DNA from: Bacteroidales bacterium
Lineage (GTDB): Bacteria > Bacteroidota > Bacteroidia > Bacteroidales > F082
DNA: 64,000 nucleotides
NCBI GenBank assembly: GCA_017394865.1
Contig: JAFPWT010000011.1
Coordinates: 62,001 to 126,000 of the forward strand
Direction of reading: 5' to 3'
This document shows, piece by piece, positions 9,185-61,082 of the stretch (positions are counted from its first letter, which is position 1; every line of letters starts with the position of its first letter). The position numbers and the translations under genes are program-made. Below the pieces are notes generated by a model. The model ran no database searches and was not told the origin of the DNA. It worked only from the letters and a program-made list of their open reading frames with translations.

Positions 9185-9975
9185 CCCATGTCGAGCGTCA
9201 TATTCTTCTCAAATTCAACTTGGACGTTTTTCAGGAACTCAATGGCGATTCGTGACCCGAAGATGATGACGAGGAAAGTGCCGAACATCATGCCGGGACG
9301 TTTGTCGCCGATGTTACGTTTGAAGAACATCCACAGCAACAGCGCCATGGCCACGAGGCAGAAGAAGGCTTCGTAAAGTCCAGTGGGATGGCAGGGCAGG
9401 AGTTCACCGTTGTCGCCGAAGAACTTCTGTTCGCCTTGGACGAAGACGAAGCCCCAAGGCAGGGTGGTGGGCTTGCCATAGATCTCGGAATTGAACACGT
9501 TGCCCAGACGGATGAGGGCGCCCACAAGACACACGGGGATGACGATGCGGTCTAAGATCCAAAGATAGGTGATGTGGGTTTTCTCGTTTTTATCCCTACT
9601 GGTTTTTTTGAGGGCTTTCTTGTTGAAGCGACGCACGTAGATCCACAATCCAAGGAGGATGCCGATGGCACCGCCGTGGCTGGCCAGGCCGCCTTCCCAG
9701 ATCTTCAAGATGGAGATGGGGTCTGAGAGATAGGCTTTCGGCTCATAGAACAGGCAATGTCCCAGACGGGCGCCGATGACCGTGAAGACCAGCATATAGA
9801 TGAGCAGAGAGTCTATCTCGCCCGCTGGCATTTTCTCTTTCTTGTAGACCTTGCTCATGAGGAGGTATCCCAAGAGAAAGCCTACCGCCCAGCAGATGCC
9901 GTACCAGCGCACCGTCAACGGACCCAGTGAGAAGGCCACCGGGTTGACGTTCCATGTGATGTAGTTCAAAACCAT
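9109..9975 (-). CDS. lgt: Prolipoprotein diacylglyceryl transferase Lgt
   Basis: A 288-residue polytopic membrane protein with the Lgt signature GALIRLGNVFNSEIYG at residues 152-167. The conserved histidine is at about residue 100 (GGLASHGG), and GARLGHCLFYEP lies at 68-79. Lgt transfers diacylglycerol from phosphatidylglycerol to the lipobox cysteine of prolipoproteins, the first step in maturing the many lipoproteins in this window. It follows the DUF2723 gene by 13 bp on the same strand. The 3' end runs 76 bp into the beta-mannosidase gene in antisense orientation. Confidence 0.94.
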   Translation of the reverse strand: MVLNYITWNVNPVAFSLGPLTVRWYGICWAVGFLLGYLLMSKVYKKEKMPAGEIDSLLIYMLVFTVIGARLGHCLFYEPKAYLSDPISILKIWEGGLASHGGAIGILLGLWIYVRRFNKKALKKTSRDKNEKTHITYLWILDRIVIPVCLVGALIRLGNVFNSEIYGKPTTLPWGFVFVQGEQKFFGDNGELLPCHPTGLYEAFFCLVAMALLLWMFFKRNIGDKRPGMMFGTFLVIIFGSRIAIEFLKNVQVEFEKNMTLDMGQWLSVPFVIVGIVMIVWSLRAKRE

Positions 9976-9988
9976 AGCTGTTTTGTTA

Positions 9989-12900
9989 TTATTTCTTCGA
10001 GCGTTCCTCTATGAGAGCATCCAGTTGGAAGCCCATGTCGGTACGTTTAAACAGCAACGTATAATACTGCATCTGTTGCAAGATGCTCATGTTCAGCTCG
10101 ATCTCTTTGGCGTAGTACTTTACAAACTTTGGCTCCATGCTCCTGTAATAGTCGATCTTCTCGCAGCTGTTTTTTGCCAACTTCTGCATAAAGTCGTCGC
10201 CTTTCAGGGAGTCACCGCAGACGTAGTATAACTCCGGGAACTGATACAGGCGGTATCCGTAGTGGAATTTCTCATCGGGGAAGAACTCTTGGAATTTGTC
10301 CATTACCACGATGGCGGAGTCGTACTCCTGATGCTCGCAGAGGCTCAGGGCGAGGCGGGCGTAGCTTTGTCGGGCAAACTCGTAGTTGCGCATGCTTTCG
10401 CGGTCGGGGATCACACCTTCTTGGTTCAGGCAACCCCAGCGGGCCTTGTTGACCAGCAGGTCGTAGCTGCCGTCGCGGTACACGCCGCCGATGTCCTCGT
10501 AATAGTCAACGGCGTCGACTTCGACGGGGATGAAACGGTAGGAAAGGCCTTCCATGTGCAAGTATTTGTCGATGCCTAACACCCCTGTCATGTCGCTGAA
10601 GCTGGTGAAGTACACCGGGCGTTCCCAGTTGTTCGAGGCCATGAAGTCGAGCAACAGCAAGGCGTTCTTATAAACATAGCCGTCTTTGATTTCCCAGCGG
10701 ATCTCGTCGACGATACGGTCTTTCATGCTCTCCGGGACGATGCCGTTGCGCACGCAGGCTTCCTTGTCAACCGTCAACTTGAGGGTGCGGACAGGGACGT
10801 AGTGCGTGGTGCTGCCGTTGGTATAGTACTTCACGGCTCTGGGGTTGTGGATGAAGTCAATCACATCCTTGAGTTCGATGTATTGTCCTTTCAGGTTGTC
10901 ATCTTCGTAGACGGGCAGCGATTCATTGACGCCGTTGTCGTATTCCTGAGGCGTCAAGGTTAGCGGCAGCCGTTCGGAGTCGTACACCTTACGTCCCATC
11001 TGGTGGGCGTACCAGTAGCCTGATGAGAGCATGTAGTTGACTACGCGCACATCGGTGCGGAAGCCTTCCACCTCTTGGATGTACCACAACGGGAAGGTGT
11101 CGTTGTCGCCACGGGTGAAGATGACCGAGTTGGGCGGTAGTTGCGCCAGATAGTTCACAGCCCAGTCGTGTGCCGCGGTCTTGCCGCTACGGTTGTGTTC
11201 GTCCCAACCTTGGTAAGCCATGAGGCCGGGGACGGCGCCGAGGCAGATTAATGTGACGAGGACGGTGACAATGATGTTGGGGGCCACGTGTTTTTTACCG
11301 ATGATCGTCTCAAACAGGTTGATGATGGCCAGTGCGCCCAAGCCAATCCAGATGGCAAAGGCATAAAACGAGCCGGCATATGAGTAGTCTCGTTCACGTG
11401 GCTGGTAAGGTGTCTGGTTCAGATATATCACGATGGCGAGACCGGTCATAAAGAACAGCAGGAAGATGACCCAACTCGACTTTGGATCTTTGACAACCAT
11501 CCATACCAAGCCGATAAGTCCGAGGATGAGCGGGAGGAAGAAATAGGTCGTCCTTCCGGGATTCTGCATACTGTCGGGGATGTCGCTCTGATTGCCAAGC
11601 CGTGCCGAGTCGATGAAGTTGATACCGCTGATCCAGTTGCCGTGGTCCAGCTCGCCTTGGCTTTCTATGTCGTTCTGACGGCCAACAAAGTTCCACATGA
11701 AGTAGCGCCAGTACATCCAGTGGCACTGGTAATCGACAAAGAAGTGCATGTTCTGGAAGAAAGTGGGCTTGTTGAACGTTTGAGTGTAGCCGCTGATGTC
11801 GCGCACTTTGACTTTCTTACCGACGAACTCTCCGCGTTTGTTCTTTGGACGGTAACTTTCATAGGTGGGGATGTGTTTCTTTGGATCACTACTCCACATG
11901 CGGGGGAACAAGGTCTTGGTCTTCGAGGAGTACTCGGGTTGGCTGTGTACCTTGTCGTCAGTGATGATGTAACGGTCTTTTTCCTTACCATTTTCCGTCA
12001 CTTTACCTTTCACATAGATCGGTCTTCCATCAGAAGCATCGGAGATGGGGGCTTTGTAATAGGGGCCGTACAACAGAGGCCATGAGCCGTATTGTTCACG
12101 GTTTAGGTAGGCCAGCATCGAAAGGGCATCCTTGGGCTCGTTTTCATTAATAGGTGTATTGGTGTTGGCACGGATAACCAGCATGAAGAACGATGAGTAA
12201 CCGATCAGGATGAACATGAATGAGAGGACGGCGATGTTACCGATGACCAGTTTGAAACGCTGGGTGAAGAACAGCCCAAGCCCGATGAGGATGATCAACA
12301 AGGCGAAATACACGATAGCGCCTGAGTTGAAGGGCATTCCGAGTGTGTTGACGAAGAACAGCTCAAACCGACCTGCCAAGTTGACGATCTGAGGCACAAG
12401 GAACATGTTGATGAGCCACAAGAGCGCCACGGAGATGATTCCGGCAACCAAGAAACCGCCAAACGAGGTCTTTTTCCATTTTTTGAAATAGACCACGTAT
12501 ACGAAAGCGGGGATGCACAACAGGTTGAGCAGGTGGACGCCGATGGAGAGGCCGATAAGATAAGCGATCAGGATGATCCAACGGCTGCTACCCGGTTCGT
12601 CAGCCACGCGCTCCCACTTCAGGATAGCCCAGAAGGTGACGGCGGTGAAAAATGACGACATGGCGTAGACCTCACCTTCGACGGCGTTGAACCAGAATGA
12701 CTCAGTAAAGGTGTAAGCCAAAGCACCTACAAGACCAGCAGCCAATACGCCAATCTTGCGACTCCATGGTGACGCATCATCTTCTTTCATCCATACCTTG
12801 CGGGCGATCATGGTGATGCTCCAGAACAGGAAAACAATCGTCAAACCACTGCAGATGGCCGACATGGCATTCACCATCATGGCCACTTTGGTTACATCGT

Positions 12901-52681: not shown

Positions 52682-52701
52682 TATCTTTCTAGATTGACAA
52701 C

Positions 52702-52740
52702 ACACGGGGCTGCCACAGCGTGGCAGCCCCGTGTTGTTTT
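52702..52740 (+). terminator. Strong intrinsic terminator after the skp pair
   Basis: A 14-bp perfect stem (ACACGGGGCTGCCA with TGGCAGCCCCGTGT) with a CAGCG loop runs into TGTTTTT. It separates the outer-membrane block from the next unit. Confidence 0.9.
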
Positions 52741-52844
52741 TGGCATTTTCGGGCTTTTATTGTTCATTTGGAAAGATTTTTGCTATTTTTCTCTTTTGTT
52801 CAGGGTAAAATGCGTATCTTTACCCCTTAAAACTTTTTGTGATA

Positions 52845-53561
52845 ATGAAATACTACTGCAAAATCATTCTTGCCCTTGTGATGACTGGCTTGATGCTGTC
52901 ATCCTGCAACAATAAGGAAGGTGAGGGCGGAACCGGCACCGTTCGCGGTCATGTCAAACTGGTGCATCATCCTGATGACGACTACCAGCTGGGGGCCGAT
53001 ACCATCGATGCGGCCAAAACGGATGTGTTCATCGTTTATGGCGATGAGGAGTTCTATGGTGACGACACGGAGACCAATCCCGACGGTCTTTATGAGTTCA
53101 ATTACCTGACCCCGGGCGACTATACCGTGTTTGCTTACTCTACGCTTCCTACTGGAGAGAAGGTCGCCGTTTCCGAGACCGTGACCCTGCATCGGGGTGG
53201 GGTGGCTGAAGTGCCGACCATATACATCCACGATGGCAAGGCCTATGGCACTTCCATCATCACTGGCAAGGTGTGGGCTTGGTATTTCCATAACAACGAA
53301 TACCGCGGTGAAAGCTGGGCTTACGAGCACCGCGTCTACCTCCGGAAGCTTGGCGACACCTACCATATAGATGATGCCCGCGTCGGTCTTAACGGCATCT
53401 TCGCTTTCCAGAAGGTGTTGCCTGGTGCCTACGAGGTGATCACTTACACACAGGATGCCCAGGAAGTTCCTTCGCCGGTTATCGATACCGTCACCGTCGA
53501 AGCCAATGAAGTCTTCCAAATGGTACCTGATACCACGTTTATTGTTCGAATTCAAGTTTAA
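52845..53561 (+). CDS. Lipoprotein with two prealbumin-like beta-sandwich repeats
   Basis: A 238-residue lipoprotein (signal ending LSSC, Cys21). Two similar carboxypeptidase-regulatory/SdrD-B-like modules are visible: about 32-120 (GTVRGHVKLV ... GLYEFNYLTPGDYTVFAYS) and about 138-238 (SIITGKVWAWYF ... GIFAFQKVLPGAYEVITYT). No enzyme motif was seen. It is the first gene of an eight-gene run and is followed after 5 bp. The ATG at 52845 is used; an upstream GTG at 52839 is less likely. Confidence 0.75.
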   Translation: MKYYCKIILALVMTGLMLSSCNNKEGEGGTGTVRGHVKLVHHPDDDYQLGADTIDAAKTDVFIVYGDEEFYGDDTETNPDGLYEFNYLTPGDYTVFAYSTLPTGEKVAVSETVTLHRGGVAEVPTIYIHDGKAYGTSIITGKVWAWYFHNNEYRGESWAYEHRVYLRKLGDTYHIDDARVGLNGIFAFQKVLPGAYEVITYTQDAQEVPSPVIDTVTVEANEVFQMVPDTTFIVRIQV

Positions 53562-53566
53562 AAGAG

Positions 53567-53995
53567 ATGAAGAGATTAATGTTGTTATTATTTGTAGGTT
53601 TTTGGGCACTGCCAGCCTTCTCCCAATCCGTCTCCGATGCCACCATCCATAAGCGTGAGAACCGTCGTGGCATGGTGCTGAAGGAATGGAACACTGCTGT
53701 GGGTGCCAAGACACCGTTCCTTGATCATGTCACCACTTACGATGAGCTGGGACGTAAGATCGAGGAGATTGAATACGCCAGCTATGGCCAGAAGTCGCGT
53801 GTGGTCAGCGAATATCCGCCTGACAGCGATGTCACTGCCAAAGTGGTGCGCGAGATCGAGTACAACGACCGTGACCGAGTCGTGCGCATCCGCAAGTTCG
53901 AATACAATGAAGACGGCTCAAAGAGCCGACAACTCAACTATTACCCCAACGGGAAACTCGAGTCGGTCAAGGTTTACGAATACATCTCCAAGTGA
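53567..53995 (+). CDS. Small exported protein with YD/MORN-like repeats
   Basis: A 142-residue protein with a signal peptide (to AFSQS). The mature part has repeating short strands (TTYDELGRKIEEIEY, EYNDRDRVVRIRKFEY, NYYPNGKLESVKVYEY), a pattern seen in YD/RHS-type and toxin-antitoxin-associated beta-meander repeats. The function is unknown. It overlaps the VTC-domain gene by 4 bp (GTGA), so the two are translationally linked. Confidence 0.65.
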   Translation: MKRLMLLLFVGFWALPAFSQSVSDATIHKRENRRGMVLKEWNTAVGAKTPFLDHVTTYDELGRKIEEIEYASYGQKSRVVSEYPPDSDVTAKVVREIEYNDRDRVVRIRKFEYNEDGSKSRQLNYYPNGKLESVKVYEYISK

Positions 53996-54759
53996 ACCCC
54001 GCTATCCTTGACATAGTAAACACCATGAAGCCGATTACGCTCGACGAAATGAAGGGCGTTAAGCTGATGAACCGTGTCGATACGAAGTATCTGGTGACAT
54101 CCGGACAACTTCAAGACATCCTCAATGGTATTCATGACTATTACTATGCCCAGGAAGTGGAAGGCAAGCGCCTGTCGGCCTACGACACCGTCTATTACGA
54201 CACGCCTGACCTGAAGATGTATACCATCCACCATGACCGTCATCTGGTGCGCGATAAAGTGAGGGTGCGTACCTATGTGGATTCACACTTGACCTTTTGT
54301 GAGGTGAAGCACAAGACCAATAAGGGCCGCACTAAGAAGAAGCGCATAGAGATTCAGCCAGGCATCGATGTGACTGTAGACCCCGAGGCATCAGCTTTTC
54401 TCGCTGAGAAACAGCCGTATCCCGTGGAGAGCCTCAACCCCAACCTTGAAACCGTATTCGACCGCTTTACGCTGGTCAACGATGAAAAGACCGAGCGCCT
54501 TACGATCGACTGCAATCTGGTGTTCAACAACTTTGTATCGGGGACGTCAGCTACAATCGATCCTTTGGTAATTATGGAACTCAAGCAGGATGGACGTGCC
54601 CGCTCCCTGCTGAAAGAGGTGCTGCTCGACCTTCGGATCAAGCCCTATAAAATCAGCAAATACTGCATCGGCACGGCCATGACCCGCCCCGAAGTCAAGC
54701 AAAACCGCTTTAAGAAAAAAATCAGAAGAATTAATAAACTCCTAACGCTTAACTCATAA
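53992..54759 (+). CDS. VTC-domain polyphosphate polymerase-like protein
   Basis: A 255-residue cytoplasmic protein of the VTC/CYTH tunnel type. Visible elements are NRVDTKYLV (27-35), YYDTPDLKMY, HLVRDKVRVRTY, FCEVKHKTNKGRTKKKR and, near the end, IMELKQDG and ISKYCIG. The alternating basic strands (R, K) and acidic metal ligands (E in CEVKHK and MELK) match VTC domains, which in yeast polymerise ATP gamma-phosphate into polyphosphate. Activity here is inferred. The start is a GTG overlapping the previous stop; an ATG at 54025 is an alternative. The next gene, a DUF4956 membrane protein, is its regular partner in bacteria. Confidence 0.82.
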   Translation: MNPAILDIVNTMKPITLDEMKGVKLMNRVDTKYLVTSGQLQDILNGIHDYYYAQEVEGKRLSAYDTVYYDTPDLKMYTIHHDRHLVRDKVRVRTYVDSHLTFCEVKHKTNKGRTKKKRIEIQPGIDVTVDPEASAFLAEKQPYPVESLNPNLETVFDRFTLVNDEKTERLTIDCNLVFNNFVSGTSATIDPLVIMELKQDGRARSLLKEVLLDLRIKPYKISKYCIGTAMTRPEVKQNRFKKKIRRINKLLTLNS

Positions 54760-54761
54760 CT

Positions 54762-55487
54762 ATGAACTTATTACAAACTGCTCCGGCTTTTGATCCTGAC
54801 ATCGCCCGTGAATTCGGCAACGGTGGCGGTGTGGCCGACATCAATTTCTTGGGTGTGCCGTTGTTCGACTCCATGAGCCTGTGGACACTGCTGTTCCGTT
54901 TCGCACTCAACTTCCTGGTGTGTTGGATCATCATTCGACTTTTCTATTACAGGAAATCGAAACGCCGTGATTATTATTTTACCTTCATGATGTTCGCTGT
55001 TGTCATCTTTTTGATTATCACCTTGATGGATAATATGAAGATGAACGTGGCCTACGCCCTGGGTCTGTTTGCCATTTTTGGCATGATCCGATACCGAACG
55101 GAGACACTACGCATTCGCGAGATGACCTACCTCTTTGTGGTTATGGGCGTTTCCATCATCAACGGTCAAGCACTGACAACGAGCTATATCGAGCTGTTTA
55201 TCACCAATATATTAGTTATTCTGGCGATCTGGGCTTTCGAGGGCAATCGCCTCTCGAAACAATTGGTGGAGAAGGTGATCCTGTACGATAAAATCGAGCT
55301 GGTGAAGGTAGGTAAGGAAGCGGAGTTGAAGGCTGATCTCGAGGAACGCACCGGCATCAGAATTGAAAAGATGGAAATCGGGCATATCGACTATCTTCGT
55401 GATGCAGCTTTCATCAAGATATGGTATAGACCAGCTCCCGGTGAGACGGGCTCGATAGGTACATTCACCAAAATCAAGGAGTTCTAG
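54762..55487 (+). CDS. DUF4956 membrane protein
   Basis: A 241-residue protein with about four transmembrane segments (about 45-62, 71-90, 97-112 and 125-160) and a soluble C-terminal domain (about 170-241). The core AYALGLFAIFGMIRYRTETLRIREMTYLF is the DUF4956 signature. DUF4956 genes commonly stand directly behind VTC-domain genes, as here with a 2-bp gap, which suggests a membrane partner or channel for the polymer. This role is inference. Confidence 0.8.
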   Translation: MNLLQTAPAFDPDIAREFGNGGGVADINFLGVPLFDSMSLWTLLFRFALNFLVCWIIIRLFYYRKSKRRDYYFTFMMFAVVIFLIITLMDNMKMNVAYALGLFAIFGMIRYRTETLRIREMTYLFVVMGVSIINGQALTTSYIELFITNILVILAIWAFEGNRLSKQLVEKVILYDKIELVKVGKEAELKADLEERTGIRIEKMEIGHIDYLRDAAFIKIWYRPAPGETGSIGTFTKIKEF

Positions 55488-55490
55488 AAA

Positions 55491-56189
55491 GTGGAAAGTG
55501 GCAGGAGGAGAACGGGAAGCCTATTAATCGCACTGCTGCTGGCAGTGGCGTGGCCTGTGTTTGGCCAAAGTGGAAGGACCAGTGACTTCGGCGCCATCCT
55601 CAGTGCGAAATACGACACCGACTTGACGGGAAAACTCGCCATCGAGGTGGAGGAAGAGCTTCGTTTTGACCACAACTGCACTCAGTTCGACCGTTGGCTT
55701 AACTCGGTGACCCTTGAATATCCGTTCCTTCACAACCGAATGCACGTAGGTCTGTCGGGAGGCTATATCCGTCGTTACAACGACCGTAACTTCTACGAAA
55801 ACCGTACCCGTATTGGCCTCGATGTCAACTATGCGGAGACTTGGCGACGCTATAAGTTTTCCTTTAGGACCCGGCTGATGACGACGTTTCGCGACGAGCG
55901 GTTAGGGGACTATCGTGTCAATCCCAAGATGTACTGGCGCAACCGTTTTCAGGTGGCTTACCAGATGCCGTACAGCCGTTTTAAATACGAACTTTCCACC
56001 GAGCTCCACTGGCTCCTCAACGACCCCAAAGCCAATGTGATCGACAATATCCGCACCGTGTTCACCGTCGATTACCGACTGTCGCGGCGTGAGCATCTCG
56101 AATTCTCCATCCGCATGGATAATGACATCCAAGTTACGGAACCCATTGATAGACTCTATCTCGGTTTTACCTATCATTATAAGAATTAA
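55491..56189 (+). CDS. DUF2490-like outer-membrane protein
   Basis: A 232-residue exported protein. The N-terminus (MESGRRRTGSLLIALLLAVAWPVFGQS) is a signal peptide, which supports the GTG start at 55491, 3 bp after the DUF4956 gene. The rest alternates amphipathic strands ending YLGFTYHYKN, as in DUF2490 beta-barrels. The function is unknown. It is part of the same run as the VTC gene. Confidence 0.7.
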   Translation: MESGRRRTGSLLIALLLAVAWPVFGQSGRTSDFGAILSAKYDTDLTGKLAIEVEEELRFDHNCTQFDRWLNSVTLEYPFLHNRMHVGLSGGYIRRYNDRNFYENRTRIGLDVNYAETWRRYKFSFRTRLMTTFRDERLGDYRVNPKMYWRNRFQVAYQMPYSRFKYELSTELHWLLNDPKANVIDNIRTVFTVDYRLSRREHLEFSIRMDNDIQVTEPIDRLYLGFTYHYKN

Positions 56190-56207
56190 CTCATAATAAC
56201 TCGAAAT

Positions 56208-57965
56208 ATGGCACTGTTTAAGAAAGGCGAAAAAATCGGAAAATACATCGTGAATTCCTTCATTAAGAAGGGCGCGTCGGCGGAATCCTATACGGTTTAC
56301 GGCGGCGATGACATGCTTTACTTCTGTAAGATATTCAATATGACAGACACGCCGTCCTCCATGCTTTTTGAAGGCAAGGAGGTGTTTGAAATCGTGTTTT
56401 GCAAGGAACTGAGTGCCGAAAGGAATGAAAATATCATTCATTATATCGACAACGGCGGCTTCAGCAAGGGCGGTAAGGAATACCATTATCTTGTGACGGA
56501 GTTCTATCCGGGCGAACTGCTCAGTGAGGCGGTGGAGAAAGAGGGCGTGTTTGATGTGGAGGATGCTTCGCAGATTGCCCTTTGCGTGCTGAATGGCTTG
56601 AAGTATATGCATGCCAAAGCCCTGCTCCACAACGACATCACACCGTCCAACATCATGTTGAAGGAACTGGAGGATGGGATGCTGCAACCTACGATTATCG
56701 ACTTGGGCCATGTCTCCTATATGGTGATGGGACGGCCCAACTTCTTTGTGGGTGACCTGGCTCCGTTTTTCCGGGCACCGGAGACCTACAGGGGCATCTA
56801 CACTCCGAAATCCGACGTGTTCTCGGTAGGCGCCCTGCTGTATTATCTGATTTTCGGCAAAGCGCCATGGGAGACCGATATCTCGGCGTGCGGCGACAAT
56901 TTGGATCTTGTTCGCGACAAGGTGAAGGAAGCCCGCAAGGCGCCGCTGGCCTTGGAAATGGGTGGTATCGAACTGCCCGATTTCATGAAGGAGATCCTCA
57001 AAAAGGCGTTGTCACTCAACATGGCTCGTCGTTTCCATTCGGCGGACAGCTTCTTTAAGAAGTTGATGGAGAAGATCGCTCCCGAGGAGAGTGAAGGAGA
57101 TGAGAGACCGGAGGATGAATCGCAGAGCGTTCTCGACAATCTGGAAAATGCGCTGAAGAATGCCTTGACGCCTCAGCAGTTCCAGCCTATTCCGTTCAAG
57201 AAAGGCTCTGGTAGCGGTTTCGACCAAGTGGCTGGCCGCGACGAGCTGAAGGAGCAGCTGCGCAAGGAAGTGATTTTTGCCATGCAACATCCTGATAAAG
57301 CCCAGTTATACCAACTGCCGAAGATTAACGGCATCCTGTTCTATGGCCCTCCTGGATGTGGCAAGAGCCTCGTGATGGAGTGTTTCGCCGAGGAGTTGGG
57401 ATTCAACTACACCATCTTGAAAGCCTCCGATTTTGGCAATATCTACCAGCCGGGAGTGCTCGACAATCTGCAGCGCATCTTTGACGCGGCATCCATCAAA
57501 GCCCCGTTTGTGCTTTGCTTTGATGAGTTGGAATACCTGATTCCCGCCCCGGGTACCGAAGGAATCACCAAGGAAAGCGTCGCCATGCTGAACCTCATGA
57601 ACGACTGCGCTGAGAAAGGCGTCTTGCTGGTGGTCTCCTCCAGTCAGCCTGATCAGGTGGATCCCTTCTTGCTCCGTCCCGGATGCATCGACAGGGTGTT
57701 TTTCGTGCCGCAACCCGATTTCGCGGCTCGTAAGGACATCTTCAAGAAACACCTGAGCAACCGACCCTGCGATGAGATCGATTACGAAGAGTTGGCACGA
57801 CTGTCAGACGACTTCGTGGCTGGCGATATCACCGAGACCGTCAACGAGGCTGCTATGACCGCAGCTTACATGGACGTGCCCATCTCCCAGAAGATCCTCG
57901 TAGATGTGCTGAAGTACAAGAACCCGACCTATTCCACCAAAACAAAAATAGGATTCCACAAATGA
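56208..57965 (+). CDS. Protein kinase-AAA+ ATPase fusion
   Basis: A 585-residue cytoplasmic protein with two enzyme domains. Residues 10-290 are a Hanks-type kinase: a glycine-poor loop near 20, K41 (YFCKIF), catalytic loop HNDITPSN (D143, N148; the usual Lys is Thr), DLG at 165-167 in place of DFG, and APE at 190-192. A charged linker (about 293-335) follows. Residues 340-575 are a classic AAA+ domain of the Cdc48/FtsH clade: Walker A GPPGCGKS at 380-387, Walker B LCFDE to 440, and LLRPGCIDR at 488-496, where the usual PGR is PGC. The kinase may regulate, or be regulated by, the ATPase. It overlaps the YbjN-like gene by 4 bp. Confidence 0.85.
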   Translation: MALFKKGEKIGKYIVNSFIKKGASAESYTVYGGDDMLYFCKIFNMTDTPSSMLFEGKEVFEIVFCKELSAERNENIIHYIDNGGFSKGGKEYHYLVTEFYPGELLSEAVEKEGVFDVEDASQIALCVLNGLKYMHAKALLHNDITPSNIMLKELEDGMLQPTIIDLGHVSYMVMGRPNFFVGDLAPFFRAPETYRGIYTPKSDVFSVGALLYYLIFGKAPWETDISACGDNLDLVRDKVKEARKAPLALEMGGIELPDFMKEILKKALSLNMARRFHSADSFFKKLMEKIAPEESEGDERPEDESQSVLDNLENALKNALTPQQFQPIPFKKGSGSGFDQVAGRDELKEQLRKEVIFAMQHPDKAQLYQLPKINGILFYGPPGCGKSLVMECFAEELGFNYTILKASDFGNIYQPGVLDNLQRIFDAASIKAPFVLCFDELEYLIPAPGTEGITKESVAMLNLMNDCAEKGVLLVVSSSQPDQVDPFLLRPGCIDRVFFVPQPDFAARKDIFKKHLSNRPCDEIDYEELARLSDDFVAGDITETVNEAAMTAAYMDVPISQKILVDVLKYKNPTYSTKTKIGFHK

Positions 57966-58366
57966 AGTCTGTAGCCAAAAATCTACTGCTTGAATACCTG
58001 AAAGCCAACGGTATCGCGGCCAAACGCTCGAAGGTGGGCGTTAACTTCGTGTACGAAGGGTGGAATTTCCTGCTTTGGAACGATGCTGACGATCCGCTGT
58101 TTTTCCGTCTTGCCCTCCCTGGCATCCTTGATGTCACCGACGAGAACTATGCCCGCGCCTTGATGGCTTGCAACACGCTCAACTGGAATTACAAGGTGGT
58201 GAAGGCTTCGCTATACGAATACGAAGAGGCTGGTAAACGCCAAGCTTCTGTCTGGGTGTGCTTTGAGCAGATGCTCGACGGTTCTTCCGACGACCCGGAG
58301 ATTGTAGCGCGTGCCGTTGCTGCCTTGACGGATGCTGCTGAACAATTTCAGAATATTTTGGAATAA
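57962..58366 (+). CDS. YbjN-like (type III secretion chaperone-like) protein
   Basis: A 134-residue protein with the mixed alpha/beta fold pattern of YbjN/Tir-chaperone-like proteins: FVYEGWNFLLWNDADDPLFFRLALPG, then ARALMACNTLNWNYKVVKA, and a final helix. Such proteins often act as small chaperones or adaptors. Its start overlaps the kinase-AAA stop by 4 bp (ATGA), a sign of coupled synthesis and possibly of physical partnership with that protein. Confidence 0.7.
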   Translation: MKSVAKNLLLEYLKANGIAAKRSKVGVNFVYEGWNFLLWNDADDPLFFRLALPGILDVTDENYARALMACNTLNWNYKVVKASLYEYEEAGKRQASVWVCFEQMLDGSSDDPEIVARAVAALTDAAEQFQNILE

Positions 58367-58371
58367 ACAAT

Positions 58372-60180
58372 ATGAAAAAGACAATGCTATTATTGCTGGT
58401 TTTGACAGGCTCTGTCGCCTTCGCACAATATGCCCCCAAAGGCGACAAAATCAAAACCCGCTGGGCTTCGGAAGTGAAGCCCGATAAGGTGCTTCCCGAA
58501 TATCCCCGCCCTTTGATGACCCGCCAGGCATGGCAGAACCTCAACGGATTGTGGAATTATGTGATCACCCCGAAAGATGCCAAGCAGCCATCTGATTACG
58601 AAGGTGAGATCTTGGTACCGTTCTGCATTGAGTCGTCACTGTCAGGCGTACAGCAGACGGTCGGCGCTGACAAGGTGCTATGGTATCAGCGTGAGTTTAC
58701 GGTGCCACGAGGCTGGAATGGCCAACGGGTGTTGCTGCACTTCGGCGCTGTCGACTGGCAGACCGATGTGTGGGTGAACGATGTCAAAGTGGGCAGCCAC
58801 ACTGGTGGGTACACACCTTTTACCTTCGATATCACCCAGGCATTGAACGACAAGAAAAACACGCTGGTGGTGCGGGTATGGGATCCCACCGACGATTCCT
58901 ATATCCCTCATGGCAAACAGGTGAACAAGCCTCGTGGCATCTTCTATACAGCTGTCACCGGCATCTGGCAGACGGTGTGGCTGGAACCCGTTCCCGAGAA
59001 CTATATTGCCTCCCTGAAGACTACACCTGATCTTGACAGAGCTACGGTGACCGTGACCCCAGACTTCAAAGGGCCTGCTGACGATGTCCTTTATCGGGTA
59101 GAGGTTTTGTATGACGGGAAGACGGTTGCCTCGGGCAAAGCCCTCGGCGGTCAGTCTGTGGAGGTGGCCATGCCCGAAGGCTTCCTCACCTGGACTCCCG
59201 ACCATCCGCATCTCTATGACATGAAAGTGACAGTGCTAAGAAAAGGCAAGACCGTCGATCAGGTGGGTAGCTACTTCGCCATGCGGAGCTTCGGCACCCA
59301 ACGTGACGAGAGTGGTATCGTCAGGTTGACTTTGAACGGCAAGCCGATATTCCATTTCGGTCCCCTCGACCAGGGCTGGTGGCCTGATGGACTATATACC
59401 GCGCCCACCGATGAGGCTTTGGCCTACGATATTGAAAAGACCAAGGAACTGGGCTTCAACATGATTCGCAAGCACGTGAAGGTTGAGCCGGCACGCTGGT
59501 ACTACCATTGCGACCGCCTCGGGATGATTGTGTGGCAGGACATGCCTAGCGGTGGGAGAGGCCCGGGCTGGCAAACCGACAAGTACTTCGACGGCCCAGA
59601 GAGCCTTCGCTCGATGGAATCAGAAGAATGCTATAAGAAGGAGTGGAGAGAGATCATAGAGAGTTTGATTTCGCAGCCCTGCATCGGGGTGTGGGTGCCT
59701 TTCAACGAGTCATGGGGTCAATTCAAGACCACGGAGATCGTTGAGATGACAAAAAAGTTGGATCCTACTCGTTTGGTGAATCCCGCTTCGGGCGGCAACT
59801 TCTACGCTTGCGGTGATATCCTCGACCTGCATCACTATCCAGAGCCGAAGATGGTGCTTTACGACCCCAGCCGTGCCACGGTGTTGGGTGAATATGGTGG
59901 CATCGGCCGCAAGGTGGAAGGCCATACCTGGGTGAAGGACCAGGGCTGGGGTTATGTGGAGTTCGATACCGAAGAAAAGGTGACCGATACCTATGTGGAA
60001 TATGCCAATCAGTTATATAATATGATTTCACAAGGCTTTTCGGCGGCGGTTTACACTCAGACCACCGATTGTGAGACCGAGCTTAATGGCTTGATGACTT
60101 ACGACCGTGAGGTGATAAAGTTGAATCCCAAACGGTTATTGGAGATCAACCGAAAGATCAGCCACGCCTTGGCAGAATGA
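58372..60180 (+). CDS. Exported glycoside hydrolase family 2 protein (beta-galactosidase-like)
   Basis: A 602-residue protein with a signal peptide (to AFAQ). The sugar-binding jelly roll includes WYQREFTVPRGW and FGAVDWQTDVWVN. The TIM barrel carries the acid/base glutamate E446 in VPFNESWGQF and the likely nucleophile E507 in LGEYGG. It is shorter than LacZ and lacks the small-chain domain. The substrate (galactoside, glucuronide or other) cannot be set. It is the last gene before the terminator at 60181 and follows the YbjN-like gene by 5 bp. Confidence 0.82.
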   Translation: MKKTMLLLLVLTGSVAFAQYAPKGDKIKTRWASEVKPDKVLPEYPRPLMTRQAWQNLNGLWNYVITPKDAKQPSDYEGEILVPFCIESSLSGVQQTVGADKVLWYQREFTVPRGWNGQRVLLHFGAVDWQTDVWVNDVKVGSHTGGYTPFTFDITQALNDKKNTLVVRVWDPTDDSYIPHGKQVNKPRGIFYTAVTGIWQTVWLEPVPENYIASLKTTPDLDRATVTVTPDFKGPADDVLYRVEVLYDGKTVASGKALGGQSVEVAMPEGFLTWTPDHPHLYDMKVTVLRKGKTVDQVGSYFAMRSFGTQRDESGIVRLTLNGKPIFHFGPLDQGWWPDGLYTAPTDEALAYDIEKTKELGFNMIRKHVKVEPARWYYHCDRLGMIVWQDMPSGGRGPGWQTDKYFDGPESLRSMESEECYKKEWREIIESLISQPCIGVWVPFNESWGQFKTTEIVEMTKKLDPTRLVNPASGGNFYACGDILDLHHYPEPKMVLYDPSRATVLGEYGGIGRKVEGHTWVKDQGWGYVEFDTEEKVTDTYVEYANQLYNMISQGFSAAVYTQTTDCETELNGLMTYDREVIKLNPKRLLEINRKISHALAE

Positions 60181-60212
60181 AAAAACGCTCCGAATTTTCG
60201 GAGCGTTTTTTT
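60181..60212. terminator. Bidirectional intrinsic terminator
   Basis: AAAACGCTCCGAA and TTCGGAGCGTTTT form a stem of about 13 bp with T tracts on both strands, directly after the GH2 stop codon. It serves both the GH2 gene and the convergent lipoprotein gene. Confidence 0.9.
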
Positions 60213-60233: not shown

Positions 60234-61082
60234 TTATTTGGCTTCGCCAGAGATAATTATCTTGGTGCCGTTAGGAGCTTCTACAGCAACAGAAGTGCCG
60301 GTGATATGAATGGCGTGATAGTTGCCTTCAGCGTCTTTGGTGACAAGCACGTCGTCGTAACGGGCACTGGCGTTGCAGTCGATTTTATTGTAATCGGTGC
60401 AAGCGGGAACTTCCGGATCCTCATAGAGCATTTGGAAGAGGCCAGCGAGATTGGAGGCGGTTTCAACGGCTTCGAACCAATCTTCACTGTCGTTTTCAAT
60501 CACGTAGAGGGCGCAACCTTCAGCAGGATAAATGTGTACGAAAGGTGATTTCCAGTTGTTTGCCTGCATTTCAAGGCCATAAGCGGAAAGGTCTTCAACA
60601 GTATGACCCCACTTTGTCCATTCGATAGAAGTGACTTCGAGGGCTTCTTCCTTGTTGATGTCAATTTTGAAGCTGGTTGAGTTGGAAAAGCCGTCGACGT
60701 CGGTCACGGTGGCGGTGATTTCGGCTGAACCGATGAGGTCCTTTCCTGCAGGTTCAAAAGAGATATAGTCTTCGAAAACGAATTCGGTGCCGTCGATCAA
60801 GGTGTCGTAAATGACACTGGGTTCTTCGGTTTCATCGCCGCTTGTAATAGCGCAAGTGACAACGAATTTGGCCAGTTCGGCTTGGGTGTTGACGTTAGAG
60901 GCAGCGCGGAAGCCATAAAGACCGAGTTCGTTGAGGTCAAGGACATCACCGTTTTGCAGGTAACCGTCTTCAGTGAGAATTTCGATGGACGGTTGCACTT
61001 CCTGAATGATTTCTTCGGGATCGCAGCTTGCAAAGAAAGCAACGCTGACGAGGCACACGAGTGCCAAAGCTAATTTCTTCAT
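60234..61082 (-). CDS. Lipoprotein of unknown function
   Basis: A 282-residue lipoprotein (signal ending FASC, Cys20). The mature part looks beta-rich, with an immunoglobulin-like N-terminal half (EITATVTDVDGFSNSTSFKIDINKEEAL) and a C-terminal half with several conserved-looking Trp residues (WTKWGHTVED, NNWKSPF). No catalytic motif was recognised. It is acidic overall. It stands alone between the terminator at 60181 and the ferredoxin terminator at 61202. Confidence 0.65.
   Translation of the reverse strand: MKKLALALVCLVSVAFFASCDPEEIIQEVQPSIEILTEDGYLQNGDVLDLNELGLYGFRAASNVNTQAELAKFVVTCAITSGDETEEPSVIYDTLIDGTEFVFEDYISFEPAGKDLIGSAEITATVTDVDGFSNSTSFKIDINKEEALEVTSIEWTKWGHTVEDLSAYGLEMQANNWKSPFVHIYPAEGCALYVIENDSEDWFEAVETASNLAGLFQMLYEDPEVPACTDYNKIDCNASARYDDVLVTKDAEGNYHAIHITGTSVAVEAPNGTKIIISGEAK

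Follow-up and report, generated by a model that had tools for sequence, protein, structure and literature searches.

The closest described systems to the locus analyzed here are the yeast VTC complex, which includes Vtc4, and the gene clusters that accompany pel loci in Gram-positive bacteria. In streptococcal, clostridial and bifidobacterial pel clusters, genes for CotH, a polyphosphate polymerase and a DUF4956 protein occur together (PMC7112168), and VTC genes near a CotH gene have been tabulated for Clostridium perfringens (PMC2879425). In Streptococcus intermedius, deletion of SIR_1592, which encodes an MgtC-like protein with an ACT domain, lowered aggregation with more Pel, and deletion of the CotH-like gene SIR_1594 lowered aggregation with less Pel; the same study also reports that the three-gene order was not found outside pel loci (PMC12345266). 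The equation of SIR_1592 with the DUF4956-type gene is our own, that name being absent from PMC12345266. Here, we describe a set of eight plus-strand genes (g1 to g8, positions 52845-60180) in a 64,000-nucleotide stretch from a Bacteroidales bacterium (assembly GCA_017394865.1, contig JAFPWT010000011.1, positions 62,001 to 126,000; hereafter the window), in which a VTC-DUF4956 gene pair stands beside a gene for a Ser/Thr kinase-AAA+ ATPase fusion and a gene for a YbjN-like protein.

The window VTC protein resembles the yeast complex in its VTC tunnel domain and in aligned basic and acidic residues. It differs in being a protein of 255 amino acids (aa) that has the VTC domain as its only Pfam match at E<=0.1, with no SPX domain, and the membrane part of the system would come from the DUF4956 protein instead. 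With the Gram-positive pel accessory clusters the locus shares a polyphosphate polymerase gene adjoining a DUF4956 gene, and with the S. intermedius cluster a glycoside hydrolase gene such as g8. Unlike those clusters, it contains DUF2490 and lipoprotein genes; Pfam returned no CotH match among the eight genes, and no pel gene was recognised by eye among the window neighbours seen.

We read the locus as a composite operon, with a probability of about 0.6: a VTC-DUF4956 polymer module (g1-g5, with the GH2 gene g8 as an old follower) in which an autonomous kinase-AAA+/YbjN pair (g6-g7) is lodged. It is a known kind of module in a new setting. In the proposed mechanism, the VTC protein would use ATP to make polyphosphate, or a polymer containing it, on the inner side of the membrane, with the DUF4956 protein serving it there as a membrane-bound partner or as a conduit. 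Carriage of the product in the outer envelope, or its retention there, would fall to the DUF2490 barrel, to g1 (the lipoprotein) and to g2 (the small exported protein), and g8 may trim an associated glycan. The second module would pair an AAA+ ATPase for protein remodelling, to which a kinase domain is fused, with an adaptor resembling YbjN and the TY-chaperones.

The distribution of the two modules among 173 genomes of the family (the window's own included) supports this reading. At thresholds of E<=1e-60 for the kinase-AAA+ fusion, 1e-5 for the YbjN-like protein and 1e-10 for VTC, the fusion and the YbjN-like protein were found in the same 58 genomes, adjacent and on the same strand in every one, and VTC was found in 89, of which 33 have no kinase match. 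Among the 58 kinase carriers, 17 have VTC no more than 3 kb from the kinase, two have it 40 or 131 kb away on the same contig and 37 have it on a different contig; in the last two (G014 and G016) it was not found. Of the 39 genomes in which both occur apart, 20 had their kinase locus read and 14 their VTC locus, and separation in the remaining ones was taken from coordinates in draft genomes. An earlier interpretation made from the window's letters alone (the sequence-only reading) had paired the kinase-AAA+ protein with the YbjN-like one, a pairing that the family makes plausible. It had also suggested that the pair is the regulatory or remodelling arm of a unit that may make, export or sense an anionic envelope polymer, and had proposed to count how often the pair neighbours VTC-DUF4956 in relatives. 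A VTC-DUF4956 module for an envelope polymer likewise remains plausible. The arm is not supported: the two adjoin in a minority of relatives (17 of the 58 kinase carriers, 17 of the 89 VTC carriers) and in none of 20 distant VTC loci, and in 19 of the 20 separated loci read the kinase is found past gyrB on the same strand.

The five genes of the VTC core are constant within the genus. We read 30 genus loci, namely those of 29 of the 31 other VTC-bearing genus genomes (G005 and G035 left out) plus L049, and found g1-g4 in all of them and g5 in 29, the single miss (L058) falling at a contig end. In the window, with Pfam figures given as whole-protein scores against curated cut-offs, g1 (52845..53561; its mechanical open reading frame starts at 52839 and its ATG lies at 52845) encodes a putative lipoprotein with beta-sandwich domains, NOMO1-like (PF22904, 28.3 bits, cut-off 27) and CarboxypepD_reg-like, whose lipobox was read by eye. 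The small exported protein g2 (53567..53995) has DUF2963/MORN-like repeats (PF11178, 22.9 bits, cut-off 22.6, a pass for the protein as a whole with no single stretch over the cut-off by itself). The VTC-domain (triphosphate tunnel) protein g3 (53992..54759), a candidate polyphosphate polymerase, scores 108.2 bits (PF09359, cut-off 23). The membrane protein g4 (54762..55487), a DUF4956 protein with a C-terminal soluble domain, scores 177.3 bits (PF16316, cut-off 30.6). The DUF2490 protein g5 (55491..56189; 65 bits, cut-off 29.8) is probably an outer-membrane beta-barrel, as we take this family to be.

Outside the family, VTC was found in 37 of 198 genomes drawn across the phylum, the window's own included, and 20 distant VTC loci from 19 genomes of this sample were read. 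A DUF4956 gene adjoins VTC in all 20, five of the matches being weak and without a Pfam check (weak values were 4e-08 to 8e-05 in L127-L129 and L131, and 2e-06 in L130 and L112). A DUF2490 gene lies nearby in nine (eight by the genus profile and one by Pfam) and a g1-like lipoprotein gene in two; no kinase-AAA+ gene was found in these 20 loci. Two further hits were set aside and not counted: a g1-like match within a 2167-aa protein in L115, and a weak g6 match (8e-05) in L131 to a cytidylate kinase-like protein. In three Bacteroidota loci (L119 7024-10585, L120 4608-8050 and L121 5936-9578), CotH is clustered with VTC, DUF4956 and DUF2490; only three proteins were put to the Pfam test, making the frequency of CotH a lower bound. 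No pel gene was recognised by eye over 15 kb around these CotH clusters, which were not profile-searched.

The VTC protein has sequence features expected of a polyphosphate polymerase. An alignment of 19 VTC sequences (from the window, from two relatives in the genus and from 16 of the 20 distant loci, L116, L117, L122 and L128 being left out) contains 19 invariant columns, including K32, R91, R93, E104, K106, R118, R158, E196, K198 and K223, and the Lys, R-x-R, E-x-K, Arg and final Lys motifs are in register with yeast Vtc4 (PDB 3g3q). These residues presumably line the tunnel, as we take them to do in Vtc4. The phylum-wide VTC profile reaches 3g3q at 1.8e-15, and the solved structures that it matched are VTC subunits alone, with Vtc4 first (seven rows). 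Synthesis of polyphosphate from ATP is the activity predicted for g3 from its sequence. The usual polyphosphate-making enzymes PPK1 and PPK2 were each found in none of 40 genus genomes, many of them incomplete (the window genome is 73% complete), nor in any of the 18 most complete; the same searches were positive in 7 and 8, respectively, of 14 named control genomes, including a Bacteroides. VTC is present in 32 of the 40, including 14 of the 18. Therefore, VTC would be the sole polyphosphate-synthase candidate in the genus among the families searched (PPK1, PPK2 and VTC).

The kinase-AAA+ fusion g6 (56208..57965, 585 aa) passes Pfam for both Pkinase (99 bits, cut-off 31.7) and AAA (70 bits, cut-off 21.2), and its motifs are intact in the kinase part (YFCK with the catalytic Lys, HND..N and DLG) and in the AAA+ part (Walker A GPPGCGKS, Walker B DE and arginine finger RPGCIDR). 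The H-N-D motif, the following Asn and D-x-G are kept in all 24 orthologues with the region present and in six paralogues, and Walker A in all 37 aligned rows; Walker B reads Glu-Glu in L023 and L049 and Asp-Gly in L025, an orthologue at 9265-10950 with Glu replaced by Gly. Three protein-kinase-like genes are clustered at about 22-27 kb of contig C15 in the window genome (G000; L005, L007 and L008).

The partner g7 (57962..58366) relates to the YbjN/TY-chaperone family (PF10722 and PF22551; PMC9503650, PMC5398634) through a weak profile match, and peptide-binding chaperones have the same fold as YbjN-like proteins (PMC9503650). The window protein differs from that family in scoring below the Pfam YbjN cut-off (17.1 against 22 bits) and in being tied to a kinase-AAA+ gene throughout its carriers. 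Among its relatives at E<=0.05, YbjN matches were obtained for 15 of 19 and TY-Chap1 matches for 5 of 19. All nine paralogous kinase-AAA+ genes in the family (35-37% identity) have a YbjN-like match alongside. One such pair (L018, 430-8974) follows a C25 peptidase gene and two Na/H exchanger genes, and its YbjN-like member, at 28.0 bits, exceeds the cut-off. The literature searched gave no description of a kinase-AAA+/YbjN pairing.

Related fusions occur in other company. With up to three candidates scored per genome, a kinase-AAA+ fusion was detected at 1e-50 in five of 395 genomes of the phylum, the window's own included. The distant copies (L078-L081) and two genus copies (L047 and L048) are homologous to g6 and differ from the window pair in their neighbours. 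In all six, an Hsp70-like gene precedes the fusion: it is the immediate neighbour in the four distant copies, and one or two genes intervene in L047 and L048; Hsp70 was confirmed by Pfam in three and by shared N-terminal sequence in the other three. A TerB-like gene follows the fusion in five of the six (three were Pfam-tested, all below cut-off), and in L080 no further gene was seen after it. Moreover, HNE or HNN replaces HxD in five of the six. These neighbours suggest that the kinase-AAA+ protein and its small partner form a protein-remodelling machine in which the small partner is exchangeable. The same group also holds an exported coiled-coil protein and a protein starting near NP(Y/F)R(I/V)LG.

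Comparison of gene orders revealed three arrangements. In the adjacent order, seen in 17 genomes, g1-g5 are followed by the kinase, YbjN-like and GH2 genes. In the split order, g1-g5 stay at the old place and the kinase, YbjN-like and GH2 genes lie beyond gyrB, which was found upstream of the kinase on the same strand in the 19 loci mentioned above (at 3-195 nt in 14 and 930-4427 nt in five); in the twentieth, L035, gyrB was unseen before the contig end. In the kinase-free order, g5 leads to the GH2 gene with a 3-nt gap in six of six loci, all from genomes without a kinase match. On a kinase tree of 43 rows, which takes in 20 of the 41 non-adjacent kinases, the split state requires one change and the adjacent state two; kinase carriers may therefore have started from the adjacent arrangement, the deciding branches being weak. 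The simplest history would be insertion of g6-g7 between g5 and the GH2 gene in an ancestor of the clade, a direction that we infer, followed by a single relocation of the downstream block (g6-g7, g8 and the following genes) behind gyrB in one lineage. A history in which the kinase-free clade lost the pair would also fit.

Further examination of the window confirmed all eight open reading frames, with intergenic gaps from g1 to g8 of 5, -4, 2, 3, 18, -4 and 5 nt. The last gene, g8 (58372..60180), encodes a GH2 glycoside hydrolase with a signal-like N-terminus and four GH2-type domains over cut-off. An intrinsic terminator precedes the genes (52702..52734, plus strand; fold -33.5 kcal/mol, z -7.1; listed by the pattern scan) and another follows them (60181..60212, plus strand; -21.3 kcal/mol, z -7.3), and each folds better than 200 of 200 shuffles. 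The second was missed by the automatic pattern scan, and the whole 12-kb region holds 10 terminator-like sites against a shuffle mean of 12.7, which is no excess; its fold is therefore the sole support for this terminator. The closely spaced same-strand genes between two terminators proposed by the sequence-only reading were recovered, together with its labels for the VTC, DUF4956, DUF2490, kinase-AAA+ and GH2 genes. The g5-g6 junction (56180-56220) shows no marked folding (-0.7 kcal/mol, z 0.8), and the eight genes are probably co-transcribed. A lipoprotein-like gene without a Pfam match at E<=0.1 lies beyond them on the minus strand (60234-61082), and recurs between the GH2 and Por genes in many kinase-bearing loci.

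The left boundary of the unit is a peculiarity of the window genome, because in all 16 other adjacent loci g1 is overlapped by a MarR-family gene or follows one that stops no more than 130 nt away. Such a gene occupies this position too in 13 of the 15 loci read with VTC apart from the kinase (these include L066, from a genome without a kinase match; the exceptions are L061, where it is 1.6 kb away, and L171, at a contig end) and in six of six kinase-free loci. The same-strand genes upstream include one for an acyltransferase in 15 of 16 adjacent, 11 of 15 VTC-apart and six of six kinase-free loci. The acyltransferase passes no NCBIfam cut-off; among solved structures it comes nearest to a 7-keto-8-aminopelargonate synthetase-like enzyme (584 bits), followed by cysteate-C-fatty acyltransferase (535 bits), serine palmitoyltransferase scores far lower (204 bits), and the L068 copy ranks likewise. 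These relatives suggest a role in sulfonolipid synthesis. Neither gene lies between OmpH and g1 in the window (52682-52844), and the window genome, at its 73% completeness, has no close MarR copy elsewhere (best 27% identity).

Several explanations compete with a composite operon. The eight genes might work as a single system, with the kinase-AAA+/YbjN pair regulating or remodelling the VTC machinery for the polymer, as the short gaps, the unstructured g5-g6 junction, the same gene order in 16 other genomes and a possibly ancestral adjacency would allow. This is nevertheless improbable, since 41 of the 58 kinase carriers have no adjoining VTC, 33 VTC carriers have no kinase match, the kinase is absent from the 20 distant VTC loci and a paralogous g6-g7 pair adjoins antiporters rather than VTC. 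VTC does occur in 56 of the 58 kinase carriers, and this, with an adjacency that is perhaps ancestral, leaves room for a past or conditional link. A still weaker candidate is an anti-phage or conflict function for the pair. The kinase part resembles the PADLOC kinases MAD6 and PD-T4-6 and the AAA+ part IetA, and predicted ADP-ribose conflict systems include TY-Chap chaperones (PMC9503650). Against this, identity of g6 with the MADS defence kinase MAD6 was rejected at 94.8 bits against an NCBIfam cut-off of 460. The chromosomal neighbourhoods of the pair are also stable in the genus, unlike those of defence islands, and we consider such a function very improbable.

As for the product, the triphosphate tunnel fold superfamily has several activities, and the VTC protein could make something other than a long polymer (short chains, or act as a triphosphatase), tuning phosphate or divalent ions through DUF4956. 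The MgtC-like character and ACT domain of SIR_1592, next to the streptococcal polymerase, speak for this view (PMC12345266). The phylum-wide profile, which matches structures of VTC subunits alone with Vtc4 first, and the retained tunnel residues speak against it, making it rather unlikely. The composite operon remains our preferred reading. Several observations nonetheless weigh against it. On the polymer side, the SIR_1593 (predicted polymerase) mutant still aggregated and is unnamed among those reported with a decrease (PMC12345266), a VTC profile built from genus sequences alone failed to reach Vtc4, eight of the 40 genus genomes have no VTC match, and the structure model of DUF4956 (g4) is of low confidence and too poor to show its fold. 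On the side of the pair, the co-occurrence of VTC in 56 of 58 kinase carriers is what a functional link would also give, and the tree branches parting adjacent from split loci are weak (split 51/91). The YbjN assignment is likewise burdened by the sub-cut-off score of g7 and by a match to E. coli YbjN no better than controls. Nor is the pairing strict: one YbjN-like paralogue (G013, L185 5959-6336) has no kinase alongside, another (G523, L186 6247-7123) lies beside a 184-aa kinase remnant, and the genus copies L047 and L048 have the TerB-like gene in place of the YbjN-like one.

A broader picture can be offered tentatively, as a possibility with the odds somewhat against it: the genus may have given up PPKs, and a soluble VTC protein with DUF4956 may be its sole polyphosphate synthase, feeding a barrel-lipoprotein device as a bacterial counterpart of the yeast VTC complex that synthesises and translocates its product, with the kinase-AAA+ proteins as a new remodelling family in which either a YbjN-like or a TerB-like protein acts as the co-chaperone. 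If the composite operon reading is true, the genus would provide a clean test of bacterial VTC function, PPK1 and PPK2 not having been found in the 40 genomes searched. VTC-DUF4956 would then be seen with outer-envelope partners in diderm bacteria, and the kinase-AAA+/YbjN pair would be separated from the VTC module.

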